DNA of 64,000 nt from Pontibacter mucosus (lineage in GTDB: Bacteria > Bacteroidota > Bacteroidia > Cytophagales > Hymenobacteraceae), in NCBI RefSeq assembly GCF_003054055.1, contig NZ_QBKI01000004.1, positions 124,001-188,000 on the forward strand, given 5' to 3'. A program made the translations under genes and the position numbers. The notes under the pieces are model-generated. The model was given only the letters and a program-made list of their open reading frames with translations. It searched no databases and was not told where the DNA came from. Of this stretch, positions 13,351 to 41,154 are shown one piece after another; within the stretch, counting starts at the first letter, position 1, and the number at the start of each line of letters is the position of its first letter.

Positions 13351-13509
13351 TGGGTTTGGCGCGGGTTTGTAACTTTTGGCTTCGTGGGGAGTTGGGTTGG
13401 TAATTAAACTGGTTATACTGCCGCCTATACTTTGCACCAGGTATACTTATACTTCATAAACATTCCGGGTAAAGGTGGCAGAAGTATAAATCCTGAAAGC
13501 ACTTTTTTG

Positions 13510-25257: not shown

Positions 25258-26685
25258 ATGAAAGTTACATTTAACAAAACTAAAGTTCTGGCTACCGTAG
25301 GGCCTGCCAGCGATTCGTACGAGCGCCTTACAGCTCTTGTGCAGGCAGGTGTTAATGCATTTAGACTTAATTTCTCGCACGGGGCCTACGAGGCGCACAA
25401 GCAGGTAATTGACAACGTGCGCGAGGTTAACCGCAATTACAACACCAACATCTGCCTGGTGCAGGACCTTCAGGGGCCAAAAATCAGGGTCGGGGATGTG
25501 GAGAACGGTGGCGTTGAGATAAGAGAGGGCGAGATCATCAGAATTCTCTGCGACGGCTCGATGAGCGTACCAGGGCAGCTTGCCACCAACTATACTCAGC
25601 TCGCTAAAGATGTAAACATAGGCGACCATATCCTGCTGGATGACGGTAAGCTGGAGGTGGTGGTTACCAGCACCGACAAGCAGAACGTGGTGGAGGCCAA
25701 GGTGAAGTATGGCGGCATCGTGAAGCCACGCAAGGGCATCAACCTGCCAAACACAAGGGTATCGGCCCCGTCCCTCACCGAGAAGGATATCAAAGACCTG
25801 CACTTCGGGCTGGATAACGATGTAGAGTGGGTAGCGCTTTCTTTTGTGCGCAAGGTGGAAGACATCTACGAAATCAAACGCATTATACAGGAGCGCGGCA
25901 AAGACACCCGCGTAATCGCCAAGATTGAGAAGCCCGAGGCGATTGAGAACATCGATGAGATCATCGAGGCAACGGATGCCATCATGGTGGCCCGCGGTGA
26001 CTTGGGCGTGGAAGTAGGCATGGAGAAAGTGCCGATGATTCAGAAGATGCTGATCGATAAGTGCAACATGGCCGCCAAGCCCGTGATTGTGGCGACGCAG
26101 ATGATGGAAAGCATGATCGTGAACCCCCGCCCTACCCGCGCCGAGACAAACGACGTGGCCAACGCGGTAATCGACGGCGCGCACTGCCTGATGCTGAGTG
26201 CCGAGACAGCCGTGGGAGCCTACCCGGTTGAGACCATCCAAAGCATGACGCTGACCATCCGTACGGTTGAAGATCACCAGGAGGGATTCCACAAAGTATA
26301 CTCCCCGAACCCAGCCTCTGAGACTTTCCTGAGCGACATCCTGGTAGCCAACGCCTGTAACCTGGCCCGCGACACCAATGCCAAGGCTATCATCGGCATG
26401 ACCAAGTCAGGATACACGGCTTTCCAACTGGCCAAATACCGTCCGCAGGCGCACATTTTTGTCTTCACCGAGAACCACCGCCTGCTCAACACCCTGAACC
26501 TGGTGTGGGGCGTGCGCGGCTTCTTCTACGACAAGTTTGAGTCTACGGACAATACAATCGCTGACATCAAGGAGACCCTGCTACAGGAAGGCCACCTGCA
26601 GAAAGGCGATGTGTTCATCAACACGGCCAGCATGCCGATTAACGAGCAGAAGCGCACCAACATGATTAAGCTGAGTGTGGCTTAG
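25258..26685 (+). CDS. pyk: Pyruvate kinase
   Basis: Makes pyruvate and ATP from phosphoenolpyruvate and ADP. The 475-aa protein has RLNFSHG (36-42), the catalytic lysine region AKIEKPEAIENID (K222), the metal and substrate motif MVARGDLGVEV (243-253), and ATQMMESM. The C-terminal regulatory domain is present (TKSGYTAFQLAKYRP). A strong terminator follows 25 bp after the stop. It contains a single AAGTATA heptamer. Confidence 0.97.
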   Translation: MKVTFNKTKVLATVGPASDSYERLTALVQAGVNAFRLNFSHGAYEAHKQVIDNVREVNRNYNTNICLVQDLQGPKIRVGDVENGGVEIREGEIIRILCDGSMSVPGQLATNYTQLAKDVNIGDHILLDDGKLEVVVTSTDKQNVVEAKVKYGGIVKPRKGINLPNTRVSAPSLTEKDIKDLHFGLDNDVEWVALSFVRKVEDIYEIKRIIQERGKDTRVIAKIEKPEAIENIDEIIEATDAIMVARGDLGVEVGMEKVPMIQKMLIDKCNMAAKPVIVATQMMESMIVNPRPTRAETNDVANAVIDGAHCLMLSAETAVGAYPVETIQSMTLTIRTVEDHQEGFHKVYSPNPASETFLSDILVANACNLARDTNAKAIIGMTKSGYTAFQLAKYRPQAHIFVFTENHRLLNTLNLVWGVRGFFYDKFESTDNTIADIKETLLQEGHLQKGDVFINTASMPINEQKRTNMIKLSVA

Positions 26686-26740: not shown

Positions 26741-26849
26741 GTTTATTTATACTTGTGGTAATGAAGGCAGGCTATAGTACTTCGTTTCTCGTTCTTGTTT
26801 GCCTCTGCCGTCTTGGTTTATACTTTTGGCTATAGTTTACACTTACTCC

Positions 26850-27385
26850 TTCTGGCGCAAGTTTTCAGACTTGTGTCTAACAATGATGTCGAGTCTCTGA
26901 CTCGACTGGCTTGAAAAGCCATACTTGCTCTGGCTATACTTTATAATTCAGCTATACTTTTATACTTGCTGATTTATACTTCCCTAGCCGCTGCTTCCCA
27001 CAACTGTAGCTAAGCTATCCTTGCTAGCTGCCGTTCATCCTCCTGCTGTTCCGGACATCCTTGTCCGGAACCATTTCTGCTGCGGACTCCCTAGTCCGCG
27101 TAAGTAATACCCCTATACTTGTCTGTTTATATATTCATAGCCACTGCTTCCCGCAACTGGACGCAAGTTCTCCTTACTAGCTGCCGTTCCTCCTCTAGTT
27201 CCCACAAACGTCTCGTTGCATCTCCAGCTTTCTGCCCTCAAGGCCGGGAGGCCTCGCCTTCGGGCATCGCGCGGTGTACATTTCTTTTGCTACCCTTCAG
27301 TCGCAATGCCGCTAAGGCGAAACCAGAAATCTACAAGGCGCTCAACCCAAAGGCTGGGAAGCGTTCGATAGCTACGGCCTTTGCT
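26850..27385 (+). repeat. Dispersed repeat, copy 1
   Basis: Matches copy 2 (39500-39868, minus strand) block by block: CTGGCG-hairpin-GTGtCT, ATGATGT-hairpin-ACTGGCTTGAAAAGCCA, CCGTTCATCCTC, GGGAGGcCTCGCCTTCGGGC and GAAATCTACAAGGCGCTCAA. Copy 1 is about 150 bp longer through a partial tandem duplication (two TAGCC(G/A)CTGCTTCCC units) and two added hairpins at 27048-27071 and 27082-27099. Confidence 0.85.
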
Positions 27386-27417
27386 ACTAGAAAGGAAAGT
27401 ATAAATTAGTAATTCAG

Positions 27418-27484
27418 AACTGTCCCCTTGAGGACAAGTGAGAGCGGCAGTTCGAAACTTGCGAGCAAAGCTCAACAGGGGGGT
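27418..27484 (-). repeat. 67-bp dispersed element
   Basis: Read on the minus strand it gives CCCTGTTGAGCTTTGCTCGC ... TTCGAACTGCCGCTCTCA ... GTCCTCAAGGGGACAGT. It is nearly identical to 39896-39963 and related to 441-512. Confidence 0.8.
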
Positions 27485-27871
27485 AATCACCTGCAGGCAA
27501 TTCCCCTCCTCGGAGGGGCTAGGGGTGGGTTTATACTTGTAGGGACAGGTCGCGACCTGTCCGCACGAGACAGCAGCTACAAAGCTTATACTTCAGCCAA
27601 AGCAGCTACAGGCTCCCCGCCTAAGACAAGGAGAGGTTAGAGGTGGTTGGGCCCGTCACTGTAACTCTTCCCCTGTTCATAAGAGAGAGCTGAGGAGTGA
27701 GTTAATCGCAACTTATACTTGCTGTGCAGCTATTCTTACTCTATGACGACTTGTGTAGCCATAGCGTCACCATCATACTTGCTACACCTTACTCGAAAAA
27801 AGTAACTCTTAGTACCGAAACGACATCGACCTCCGATATCACTAAAAACCAGGCACCACCACAAACGCAAA

Positions 27872-27920: not shown

Positions 27921-28178
27921 TTAAGCAGCGATGCTGTTAACCAGCTTAGCCAGTTTAGACTTGTTGTTGGCCGCTTTGTTTTTGTGGATGATGTTTTTCT
28001 TAGCCAGACGGTCAAGCATAGAAGAAACTGTCTTGAACAGTTCCTGCGCCTCGGCCTTGTCAGTTGTAGTTCTCAGCTTCTTGATGAAAGTACGAGTAGT
28101 TTTCGCCTGGTATCTGTTACGAAGACGTTTAGCGTTGTTCGCTCTGATTCTTTTTAATGCCGACTTATGGTTAGCCAT
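27921..28178 (-). CDS. rpsT: 30S ribosomal protein S20
   Basis: An 85-aa basic protein that binds 16S rRNA during small-subunit assembly. It opens MANHKSALKRIRANNAKRLR and ends LAKLVNSIAA, both typical of S20. Monocistronic: a strong promoter (28227-28258) and a terminator bracket it. No TATACTT heptamer within it. Confidence 0.97.
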   Translation of the reverse strand: MANHKSALKRIRANNAKRLRNRYQAKTTRTFIKKLRTTTDKAEAQELFKTVSSMLDRLAKKNIIHKNKAANNKSKLAKLVNSIAA

Positions 28179-38005: not shown

Positions 38006-39139
38006 ATGAACTACAGGCCAGGACGTATTTTCCTTTCGGCGCCGCACATGGGCGGGCACGAGAAAAACTATGCGCTTAAAGCCATAGAAGACAACTGGGT
38101 GTCGACGACTGGCCCTAACCTGCCTGGCTTTGAGCACGATATCTGCCAGCACACCAATGCCCGCCATGCCGTTGCCCTCAGCTCCGGCACCGCCGCCCTG
38201 CACCTGGCCCTGCAAGTGGTGGGGGTTAAACCCGGCGACGAGGTGCTCTGCTCTACCTTTACCTTCGTGGCATCGGCCAACCCTATTTTATACTTGGGAG
38301 CTAGCCCCGTGTTTGTAGAGAGCGAGCCCGACACGTGGAACATGGATCCTGAAGCATTGCGCGCAGCCATTACCGACCGCCAGCGCCAGGGCAAACGACT
38401 AGCTGCTATTGTGCTTGTGCACCTTTATGGCATGCCTGCCAAGCTGAAGGAGATTATGGCAATAGCGGATGAGTTTGGAATACCGGTGATTGAGGATGCG
38501 GCAGAGGCCCTGGGCTCGCGCTACAGCGGCCATCAGGTGGGCACTTTCGGCAAGGCGGGTATCTTCTCCTTCAACGGCAACAAAATCATCACCACCTCCG
38601 GAGGCGGCGCGCTTATCTCGGAGGATGAGCAACTCGTAGAGCAGGCACGCTTTCTGGCCACCCAGGCCAAAGACCCGGCTCCTTATTACGAGCACTCCCA
38701 GATGGGCTATAACTACCGCATGAGCAACATCAGCGCCGGCATCGGGCGTGGGCAACTGGAGGTACTGGAGAAGCGCATTAAGCAGCGTCGCGATATTTTC
38801 CACTTCTACAAGCAGCAACTGGGCCACATAGAAGGACTGGAATTTATGGCGGAGCCTAAAATCTGCTACACCAACCGCTGGCTTACCACCGTGCTGCTAC
38901 CCGAGCCGCACACGCCCGAAAGTATACGCCTGGCCCTGGAGGAGGAGAACATCGAAACGCGCCCACTCTGGAAGCCCATGCACCTGCAGCCGCTCTTCCA
39001 GCACCACCCTTACACAGGCAATAACCTCAGCGGAAAGCTCTTCGAGCGCGGCCTCTGCCTGCCCAGCAGCAGCAACCTGACGGAGGAGGAACTGGATAAG
39101 GTAGTGAAGCACCTGAGGCGGCTGCTGGAGGTAGTGTAA
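38006..39139 (+). CDS. DegT/DnrJ/EryC1/StrS family aminotransferase
   Basis: A PLP-dependent sugar aminotransferase, 377 aa. It shows SAPHMGGHEKNYALKA (11-26), SSGTAALHLAL, CSTFTFVASANPI, the PLP-ring aspartate D164 (VIEDAAEALGS), and the Schiff-base lysine K193 in FSFNGNKIITTSGGG. These act on nucleotide-linked 4- or 3-keto sugars for O-antigen, capsule or glycoprotein glycans; some Bacteroidota use such enzymes for N-glycans such as bacillosamine. No sugar biosynthesis cluster surrounds it, so the product is unknown. Confidence 0.92.
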   Translation: MNYRPGRIFLSAPHMGGHEKNYALKAIEDNWVSTTGPNLPGFEHDICQHTNARHAVALSSGTAALHLALQVVGVKPGDEVLCSTFTFVASANPILYLGASPVFVESEPDTWNMDPEALRAAITDRQRQGKRLAAIVLVHLYGMPAKLKEIMAIADEFGIPVIEDAAEALGSRYSGHQVGTFGKAGIFSFNGNKIITTSGGGALISEDEQLVEQARFLATQAKDPAPYYEHSQMGYNYRMSNISAGIGRGQLEVLEKRIKQRRDIFHFYKQQLGHIEGLEFMAEPKICYTNRWLTTVLLPEPHTPESIRLALEEENIETRPLWKPMHLQPLFQHHPYTGNNLSGKLFERGLCLPSSSNLTEEELDKVVKHLRRLLEVV

Positions 39140-39327
39140 GGAAGTATGTGGGGGATATAGTGGATATTATGTCAGCTGTTTTTGCAGTACCGGGTCCAAC
39201 CACCCCTACACCTCCTTAGCTAAGGCGGGGAGTTTGTGACAACTTTGGCCGGAGTACAAGTTTTATAGTTAGAGTGTAAACACCCCTATGGTCCCCTCGA
39301 GGGGACAGTCTGGTCTTTAATCATTCC

Positions 39328-39399
39328 CTGTCATCTCGAGCAGCGCGAGAGATCTATCGGGAATTATAGTCAGATCTCTCCCGAAGGTCGAGATGACAG
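39328..39399. repeat. Nested palindromic REP-like element
   Basis: CTGTCATCTCGA (39328-39339) pairs perfectly with TCGAGATGACAG (39388-39399); inside it GAGAGATCT (39347-39355) pairs with AGATCTCTC (39372-39380). Elements beginning GTCAT(C/T)TCGA are familiar from other Bacteroidota genomes. Confidence 0.85.
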
Positions 39400-39499
39400 C
39401 ATTAGCCGTAGCGGGCTAGTCTGTTCCTAGCCCTCTTCTCGGCAAGCGACTATCATCCCCCTACCCCCTTCAAAGGGGGACTTTTGCTGAAGCTCCGTC

Positions 39500-39868
39500 A
39501 GCAGGAGCTATCGAATGATTCCCAGCCTTTAGGTTGAGCGCCTTGTAGATTTCCGGTGCCCGCCAAGGGCATTGCGACCGAAGGGCAGCAAAGGAAATGT
39601 AGACAGCGCGATGCCCGAAGGCGAGACCTCCCGGCCTGGGAGGGTAGAAAGTATGCTATGCAACTGTAGGTTGGTGGGAACTAGAGGATGAACGGTGGTT
39701 TGGAAGTATAGCTTGTTTCAAGCTGAAGGAAACAGCGGCTATGAAAGTATAAACCGGCAAGTATAAAAGTATAGCTGAAAGTATAGAATATTGGCTTTTC
39801 AAGCCAGTTGGGTTACAAACCCAACATCATAATAGGCACGAGTTGCAAACTCGCGCCAGCGAGGGCTG
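39500..39868 (-). repeat. Dispersed repeat, copy 2
   Basis: Reverse-strand counterpart of 26850-27385. Shared blocks include GAGCGCCTTGTAGATTTC, GCCCGAAGGCGAGACCTCCC, GGCTTTTCAAGCC and the two variable hairpins at 39807-39825 and 39839-39853. It lacks the tandem duplication and extra hairpins of copy 1. Confidence 0.85.
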
Positions 39869-39895: not shown

Positions 39896-39963
39896 AACAC
39901 CCCTATTGAGCTTTGCTCGCAAGTTTCGAACTCCCGTTCTCACTTGTCCTCAAAGGGACAGTC
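39896..39963 (+). repeat. 68-bp dispersed element
   Basis: Begins AACACCCCTATTGAGCTTTG, then CTCGCAAGTTTCGAACTCCC, and ends TCCTCAAAGGGACAGTCT. Near-identical to the reverse complement of 27418-27484. Confidence 0.8.
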
Positions 39964-40023
39964 TATACTTGCTGTATAGCAAAGGCACAAGCCTACGCTT
40001 ACGCCAGAGATAGCTTCTCCCTG

Positions 40024-41154
40024 CTATACTACCGCCAAGGCAGTCTCCAGCTCCGCAATCAGCTCCTCCAGCTCCTCAATCCCTGTCGAAAAACGAATCA
40101 CCCCCACTGTTATACCCAATTTCTGCTGTTGCTCAGGGGTTAGGGATCGGTGCGAGGTTCCTAAGGGATGCGAAATAGAAGTGTTCACGCCCGCCAGCGA
40201 CGGGGCGAAAGGAACGGTTGGCAGCGCCTGCATAAAACGATTTACGGCCTCTGCCTCGTCTTTAATCCGGAAACTGAGCATGCCACCGAACAGCCCCTGT
40301 CCCTGTTGTTTGGCCAGTTCGTGCTGCGGATGCTCTTCCAACCCCGGATACCATACTTTTTCCACTTTCGGGTGTTGCTGCAGGTACCGGGCAACCTGCA
40401 GGCCGTTGCTGCTGTGCTGCTTCATGCGCAGGCGCAGCGTCTTCAGCCCGCGGGCGGCCAGCCAGCCTTCAAACGGACTCAGGTTAAGGCCATACACCAT
40501 CATGACCTTCTGCACGCGCTGCAGCACCTCCTGCGCCCGGCATATTACTACACCCGCTGTTACATCGCTGTGCCCGGAGAGGTACTTGGTTACACTGTGG
40601 ATTACGATGTCCGCGCCTAAAGTAAGCGGCTTGGTGAGTATGGGTGAGGCAAACGTGTTGTCGATGACAAGTTTTATACTTTGCCGGCTCGTTTCCTGGG
40701 CCAGCCTGGCGATATCGAGCACCTGCAGCAGGGGGTTGCTCATGGTTTCGGCCAGCATCAGGCGCGTGTTTGGTCGCACGTAGCTGTCTAAAGTGTACGT
40801 ATCGGCAGTAGGCACAAAACTCACTTCTATGCCCACCCGCGTTAGTTCCTGCGTCAGCAGCGCCGACGAGCCACCGTAAATCTCCTCCGCACACAGCACA
40901 TGGTCGCCGGCCTGGCAAACGGCAAGTATAGCCGCCAGTATAGCCGACATACCCGAAGAGGTAACCACAGCTCCCACGCCGCTTTCCAGTTTGTTCACCT
41001 CCTGCGCCAGCTCATCGGTATTGGGGTTGCCGTAGCGGGTGTACATGTAGCTTTGCCCCGGCTGCCCGAAGTATAACTCCAGCTCGTTCAGGTCGTCGAA
41101 AGTGAAAACAGAGGTCTGGTAAATCGGGGTGGTTTTCGGGTGAATGTTCGGCAT
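40024..41154 (-). CDS. Trans-sulfuration PLP enzyme (Cys/Met metabolism family)
   Basis: A 376-aa PLP enzyme of the cystathionine gamma-synthase/lyase, methionine gamma-lyase and O-acetylhomoserine sulfhydrylase family. Features: YTRYGNPNTDELAQEVNKLE (38-57), SSGMSAILAAIL, YGGSSALL, the aspartate in VIDNTFASPILTKPL, the Schiff-base lysine K190 in IHSVTKYLSGHSDVTAG, and RFSTGIEELEELIAEL near the end. Members cannot be told apart safely by sequence; cystathionine gamma-lyase or gamma-synthase is most likely. No met or cys gene is adjacent. Confidence 0.88.
   Translation of the reverse strand: MPNIHPKTTPIYQTSVFTFDDLNELELYFGQPGQSYMYTRYGNPNTDELAQEVNKLESGVGAVVTSSGMSAILAAILAVCQAGDHVLCAEEIYGGSSALLTQELTRVGIEVSFVPTADTYTLDSYVRPNTRLMLAETMSNPLLQVLDIARLAQETSRQSIKLVIDNTFASPILTKPLTLGADIVIHSVTKYLSGHSDVTAGVVICRAQEVLQRVQKVMMVYGLNLSPFEGWLAARGLKTLRLRMKQHSSNGLQVARYLQQHPKVEKVWYPGLEEHPQHELAKQQGQGLFGGMLSFRIKDEAEAVNRFMQALPTVPFAPSLAGVNTSISHPLGTSHRSLTPEQQQKLGITVGVIRFSTGIEELEELIAELETALAVV

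Follow-up and report, generated by a model that had tools for sequence, protein, structure and literature searches.

Within the 64,000-nucleotide stretch of the Pontibacter mucosus genome analysed here (the window), two clusters of hairpins raise the question of how a structure is retained while its sequence is rewritten, and of what kind of element would require this. The first-pass annotation of this DNA had described the clusters as a structure kept while its sequence changes, and had ascribed this to selection or to a templated process. On re-reading the sequence we confirmed the coordinates and the compensated stem changes that it gave for both clusters. Copy 1 (26852-26924, plus strand) and copy 2 (39789-39859, minus strand) are the same three-hairpin unit, consisting of H1, H2 and H3.

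H1 was located by sequence and frame scan in both copies and additionally by alignment in copy 1, where it occupies 26852-26877 (+) as CTGGCGC-stem-loop-stem-GTGTC with a fixed G.T wobble. The H1 of copy 2 lies at 39834-39859 (-) and reads GGCGCGAGTT-TGC-AACTCGTGCC. The frame CTG[G/C]CGC-stem-loop-stem-GTG occurs exactly twice in the 64 kb, both times as H1. H2, placed by sequence and covariation, reads GTCGAGTC-TCT-GACTCGAC in copy 1 (26888-26906, +) and GTTGGGTT-TGT-AACCCAAC in copy 2 (39807-39825, -); three stem positions differ between the two, and all three are compensated in the other arm. H3, placed in the same way, follows at 26907-26921 (+) as TGGCTT-GAA-AAGCCA and at 39792-39806 (-). 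When 74-nt stretches were folded as DNA, each copy scored better, whichever strand was taken, than all of 200 dinucleotide shuffles (copy 1, z = -5.2/-4.5 and copy 2, z = -8.0/-7.6 on the two strands). A covariance model built from dispersed copies of the unit (R1) yielded two strong matches in the window, copies 1 and 2 (E = 8e-23 and 6e-21), and weak matches at 39974-40007 (E = 0.03) and at 26843-26879 on the minus strand (E = 0.3). A further weak match to the model was observed at 13356-13430 (+) (21.6 bits, E = 0.001).

The unit forms the 5' end of a longer element. Copy 1 as a whole spans 26852-27390 (+), between pyk (pyruvate kinase, 25258-26685, +) and a converging gene that we named rpsT by eye (about 27924-28178, -), while copy 2 spans 39490-39859 (-), between convergent genes at 38006-39139 (+) and 40024-41154 (-). 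The 109 distinct elements that have both parts measure 302-592 bp and show a constant order of 5' unit, TATACTT-rich spacer, optional hairpins and 3' structured domain, with gaps that vary from -2 to 301 bp. The extra hairpins reported in the first-pass annotation are present, as is its H1, and we place them at 27049-27070 (+) (H4, TTCCGGAC-ATCCTT-GTCCGGAA) and 27082-27099 (+) (H5, GCGGAC-TCCCTA-GTCCGC); their patterns recur in 12 and 10 of the 109 elements, respectively. The core of the 3' domain, a hairpin AGGCC/GGCCT plus nested long-range helices, lies at 27238-27359 (+) in copy 1, with a tip that is mismatched by eye (TGCC vs GAAA), and was placed by alignment and covariation at 39520-39640 (-) in copy 2.

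Other repeats were observed around the two elements. A dispersed module, ACTGTCCC-TTGAGGACAAGTGAGA-..-AACTTGCGAGCAAAGCTCAA-AGGGG, adjoins both of them (27419-27484, +, and 39897-39962, -; 92% alike), and a C-rich/G-rich module, CTCCCCGCCT...GGTGGTTGG, lies at the far end of both clusters (27577-27664, +, and 39182-39268, -), covered by 55-69 blast pieces among loci of the same genome. An inverted repeat, CTGTCATCTCGACC...CTCGAGATGACAG, at 39328-39399 (-) is matched by many loci of this genome (~50 overlapping blast pieces). The commonest 7-mer of the window is TATACTT/AAGTATA, with 154 occurrences on both strands vs ~2.7 expected per strand; its density is 5.4 per kb outside ORF-like stretches and 1.8 per kb within them, a threefold difference.

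The unit is abundant. R1 detected at least 98 copies in the 5.23-Mb genome, and blastn with the 74 nt, in which the best 40 of 102 candidates were scored, gave at least 42 matches in this genome, including one that covers no more than 25 nt. At E<=0.001, R1 has matches in 48 of 50 genomes of the genus, and at the stricter E<=1e-5 in 98 of 150 genomes of the family, from all six genera. With blastn, matches were obtained in 15 relatives within Pontibacter and in none of 14 genomes of other families, and all 52 named stretches carrying the H2-H3 pattern were Pontibacter records. The plasmid collection gave no match to the repeat, and no tandem repeats were found. Protein coding was rejected, as no overlap with a coding ORF exceeded 120 bp in any of 96 elements; with its at least 98 copies, the unit is thus a high-copy intergenic palindrome, as REPs are.

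The covariation test on copies collected genome-wide that had been proposed in the first-pass annotation strongly supports a retained structure. From 119 copies of the 5' unit in this genome and its relatives, two without H1 were dropped and 117 aligned. Across H1, H2 and H3, 97.5% of 2666 base-pair cells were paired, and double changes occurred in 16 of 23 pairs (237 cells vs 56.7 expected; 0 of 500 shuffles reached the observed values). Sliding the partner by one base reduced pairing to 41-47%. Since the copies share ancestry, which shuffling does not keep, it is this slide control and the size of the effect that carry weight. Stems that differ without compensation, named beforehand as evidence to the contrary, account for the remaining 67 cells (2.5%), so that some copies are imperfect.

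The constant parts of the unit are its foot, CTG, a spacer around ATGATG between H1 and H2, and a wobble: one pair of H1 is fixed as G.T in 113 of 116 distinct rows, and the pair next but one to it is G.T in 67 and G.C in 43. Outside these two regular wobble pairs, departures from Watson-Crick pairing on the H1 strand were G.T in 65 cells vs A.C in 26. The original alternative of selection or a templated process can therefore be narrowed, because pure palindrome copying would perfect the stems, yet the wobble is kept.

Matching the R1 model to 30 loci, some of them overlapping, in seven genomes of five other genera yielded 54 matches, some weak or partial, and 46 distinct rows. Here, double changes affected all 23 pairs (covariation score 0.609 vs 0.169 shuffled) and 96.8% of cells were paired, compared to 34-40% with the partner slid by one, in an alignment that was fitted to R1 and hence leans towards the structure. 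The plan and the spacer of the unit are common across genera. The pair fixed as a wobble in Pontibacter was G.T in 31 of the 46 rows, a flipped T.G in 6, Watson-Crick in 7 and A.C in 2; outside it, G.T and A.C departures numbered 11 vs 9. Inverted units with their 5' ends outward were found in 11 of the loci (12 pairs, some with a weak second unit).

The 3' domain also covaries, which is new here. In 54 representatives of 128 copies, 92.9% of cells are paired and double changes occur in 15 of 27 pairs, a count reached by 4 of 500 shuffles; the structure counted was derived from the same sequences, which favours it. None of 500 shuffles reached the percentage paired, the number of double-change cells or the covariation score, and the number of further pair types was no more than chance (179 of 500 shuffles). 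Pairing is lower in helices 5 and 6 (73% and 82%). Departures were G.T in 25 and A.C in 16 cells, and swaps between GC and CG are common without G.T intermediates (in one pair GC 30, CG 20, GU 1). The 3' part folds more stably on the strand opposite to H1 (-111.9 vs -94.8), with z = -3.7 on that strand vs -2.8 on the H1 strand in copy 2. In several copies (loci L043, L045, L056 and others), one arm of this domain contains an additional, optional stretch, GGGGGTAGGGGCCCTCGATAAGGG or a close variant of it, and some other copies carry the complementary insert GAGGGCCCCTACCCCC in the other arm.

Which enzyme could spread such a unit is suggested by the genes beside its relatives. The family PF01797 (Y1_Tnp) is present in 43 of 50 genomes of the genus, with eight matches in the P. 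mucosus genome, and all four proteins of this genome that were tested pass the model NF047646, 'REP-associated tyrosine transposase' (RAYT), at 89.9-107.7 bits (cut-off 80). In nine aligned RAYT proteins, HxH, the tyrosine and N-P-V are invariant: H[VIL]H occurs in all nine (preceded by N in five and by S in four), WQ in eight, and Y[IL]H.NP in nine, five of which read exactly YIH[QN]NP. One of them, P0001, is 182 aa long. A search of solved structures by sequence gave a transposase as the best match at E = 0.07, which was too weak to be used.

The RAYT flanks that we read carry hairpins that have the same frame but different stems and that stand on both sides of the gene in loci L174 and L178, and the broken RAYT gene of L176 is flanked by a pair like H4-H5, in which H4 is of the same type. 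In L178, we also observed two-hairpin units at 1266-1324 and 1328-1393 (H1 and an H2-like GCGAATC stem), with no clear H3 by eye. R1 matches at E<=0.001 lie within 450 bp in 25 of 37 RAYT loci, on both sides in 16, and are 20-fold denser near RAYTs (53 in 33.3 kb) than further out (6 in 75.5 kb), with modest E values of 4e-7 to 1e-3. In 101 kb of control loci, R1 gave five matches at E<=1. Two of them share a locus, one being a true copy (E = 1.4e-16); the remaining three, from other (pyk) loci, are weak (E = 3e-4 to 0.01). The H1 frame adjoins 17 of 32 placed RAYT loci and occurs 33 times in 28.8 kb near them vs 6 times in 64.8 kb further out; the same controls contain two, one of them in L149, which holds a true copy. 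Among the 12 of 37 RAYT loci without a nearby R1 match at that threshold, the H1 frame is present in L174, L182-L184, L201, L207, L208 and L210, and L176, L179, L204 and L206 have neither. Twelve pairs of neighbouring units at RAYTs are inverted, with the 5' ends outward in 11.

Stem type follows the RAYT tree: nine changes are needed (minimum 7), compared to a mean of 21.7 after shuffling, with 0 of 200 shuffles as low. In this count, a locus received its stem label from the patterns present up to 800 bp from its middle; 4 of 32 loci are unlabelled, and 10 of 29 inner branches of the tree are open. Types from RAYT flanks also recur inside the 109 elements (the L174 type in 15, the L173 type in 7, and H4, which is the L176 type, in 12); the flank types of L177 and L178 are absent from all 109. 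The identical types are all optional modules; H1-H2-H3 shares the plan. Independent palindromic insertions, which the first-pass annotation had named as an explanation that would refute its reading, therefore fit the optional hairpins (27049-27099, and others in other copies): transposase genes at other places in the genome are flanked by hairpins of their type, so that they appear to be REPs that inserted separately. Such insertions do not fit the core H1-H2-H3, since spacer, order and wobble are common to copies whose stems differ stepwise.

It is likely, in our judgement, that the two clusters are the 5' units of a composite repeat, dispersed between genes, which acts in the manner of the REPs, REPINs and BIMEs of RAYTs. 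This reading draws on the covarying structure, the plan that it shares with RAYT flanks, the stem type that follows the RAYT tree and the reassorting modules. RAYT-type small transposases flanked by similar units probably spread the repeat. We infer mobilisation by a RAYT, and that the main H1, H2 and H3 types had a cognate one; the commonest H1 types (AAGTC, GAGTT, GGGTT) flank none of the RAYT loci scanned, so their cognate enzyme may have been lost. Against a role of RAYTs, a RAYT-like motif was found in none of the 30 sister-genus loci, partly overlapping stretches with 1.5 kb on each side. Neither insertion with target duplication nor excision was seen.

By analogy with the published biochemistry of E. 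coli TnpA-REP, a RAYT (HuH-type TnpA-REP) would bind the folded unit as single-stranded DNA, reading its foot, its wobble and the shape of its hairpins, and would cut and rejoin it, so that copies could spread between genes. Any one base in a stem would then be free to change if its partner changed too, and each RAYT lineage might drift to stems of its own. Copies would further exchange hairpin-sized modules and take up additional REPs, which could give rise to mosaics.

Modules do reassort. With module types assigned by pattern, no pair of the five typed modules was associated in the 50 elements of the P. mucosus genome (permutation counts 124-500 of 500), and two pairs were associated in all 109 elements, H1-H6 (16 of 500) and H6-S (3 of 500). 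The two arms of the S stem, which lie tens of bases apart, match in 102 of 106 typed copies (V = 0.95; 128 copies, 14 of which were untypable for each arm). The hairpin that they enclose is less coupled to them (V = 0.65), and V falls to 0.43 for the tip hairpin and to 0.36 for the adjacent one.

We identified 20 pairs of sites with both flanking genes shared between this genome and a relative, drawn only from loci already holding elements on both sides and with some loci of this genome serving in two or three pairs; orientation agrees in 19. Copies at the same site are nevertheless no more alike than unrelated ones, which is new here: in 17 pairs with both 3' cores, mean identity is 83.1%, a value reached or exceeded in 970 of 2000 permutations, and in 7 of 14 the two copies have the same H1 type. 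This reflects either the overwriting of one copy by another or the independent filling of gaps. The pyk-rpsT gap holds an element in 3 of 26 species by blastn, one of the three with the 3' part only, and the weak R1 matches mentioned above (E = 3e-4 to 0.01) come from three more loci of this kind. We would advance only tentatively the stronger proposal that what is read is shape (the foot, one wobble and the three-hairpin layout, with stems that can be rewritten between genera), combined with continual piecewise overwriting at fixed sites. If overwriting holds true, the lack of likeness at matching sites would measure the exchange between repeats.

The alternative that survives best is that the repeat is a different sort of non-autonomous mobile element, namely a modular MITE, and that the RAYT REPs in it are no more than insertions. 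BOX elements of pneumococcus are modular, structured and intergenic in this manner. The 3' domain, with covarying helices of its own, speaks for such an element: at E<=0.001, its core had no match in 38 RAYT loci, and it may for this reason belong to another element. The constant order of parts across variable gaps and the absence of a GTAG tag point in the same direction. The 5' unit, however, occurs on its own beside RAYTs and in sister genera, and we consider this alternative unlikely.

Less probable still is that the repeat is a structured RNA, be it an element of a 3' UTR, one for processing or stability, or a non-coding RNA of its own, in which folding of the transcript drives the covariation. 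Such covariation is strong in the genus, in the 3' domain and in sister genera, and the excess of G.T over A.C in the genus and in the 3' domain points the same way, yet this excess is all but gone in the sister genera. Gene context can be read both ways. Of 96 elements with enough flank, 95 lie between two called genes, the calls being made from codon usage by a script rather than by an annotator; 39 are in convergent, 6 in divergent and 50 in same-direction gaps. Divergent gaps are thus rare, and the strand opposite to H1, which is sense in most same-direction gaps, is the one that folds more stably over the 3' part; the H1 strand itself is antisense to the genes in 39 of these 50 gaps. An initial reading of gene orientation, in which the 3' neighbour faces the element (78 of 95), reduces to the 39 convergent vs 6 divergent gaps plus these 39 of 50. 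The patchy presence at the pyk-rpsT site argues against an RNA, as does Rfam: tRNA was the only family at gathering score in the window, and a relaxed search of the element gave matches all well below gathering scores. Very improbable, finally, is a purely mutational process in which template switching in quasipalindromes matches the arms without selection, for although whole stems change together and GC-CG swaps in the 3' domain lack G.T intermediates, the wobble stays uncorrected in the genus and in 37 of 46 sister-genus rows (flipped in 6), the long-range S arms are matched more tightly than the hairpin that they enclose is coupled to them, and plan and spacer are common to several genera.

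Among known systems, an integron attC was considered and rejected: the GTTGGGT of the repeat is similar to a core site of attC, but the order is the reverse and the motif is missing from many copies. In the open-licence literature, we met neither the three-hairpin plan nor its family-wide covariation, and nothing relevant on Pontibacter repeats. The REP/REPIN-like reading that we prefer can be compared with three published accounts. REP sub-families with alternative complementary stem residues and frequent G.T pairs have been described, located between same-direction and convergent genes and near gene 3' ends (PMC3733652). The Pontibacter repeat resembles these GTAG and CGTC REPs in its complementary stem alternatives, its frequent G.T pairs and its same-direction and convergent gaps, and differs from them, as they are described there, by three hairpins in a set order, by stems that change across genera and by the lack of a tag. 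GTAG was present within 12 nt upstream of H1 in 1 of 119 copies and within 20 nt downstream in 4 of 119, and CGTC within 12 nt upstream in 3 of 119. As the tag is absent, the unit falls outside the GTAG- and CGTC-tagged superfamilies.

E. coli TnpA-REP is reported to cut single-stranded REP and to need a conserved irregularity of the stem (PMC8266576). A conserved irregularity, a conserved foot and mosaics of REP types are shared with the E. coli REPs and BIMEs of that account; the irregularity there is a bulge of two mismatches together with GTAG, whereas the Pontibacter unit has one wobble pair and a CTG foot. That the wobble is kept as a wobble, even when flipped, is a direct and testable prediction about recognition, and the copies, about 100 in some genomes and spread over six genera, form a natural covariation data set for what a REP transposase reads. 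The inverted doublets beside RAYTs and in sister genera are like REPINs, unlike the main Pontibacter copies, which are single units followed by the 3' domain.

There is also a likeness to the subclass 2.6 TnpA-REP of Bacteroidetes, whose genes are described as flanked by structures that are copied elsewhere in the genome, called 'atypical' and found by hand, and whose proteins of about 179 aa carry the motifs NH[LIV]H, WQ and YIH[QN]NP (PMC6006769). By motifs, the Pontibacter transposases are similar to these (~180 aa, with HxH, WQ and YIH[QN]NP-like motifs). The main text of that account does not contain the word Pontibacter, and the three-hairpin plan, the wobble and the covariation are described here, so that the apparent 'atypical' REPs of these transposases now have a defined anatomy and can be searched for with a model. 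With REP stems of alternative complementary residues and atypical Bacteroidetes structures in print, the underlying phenomenon is of a known kind; the anatomy of the unit and its family-wide covariation are new here.
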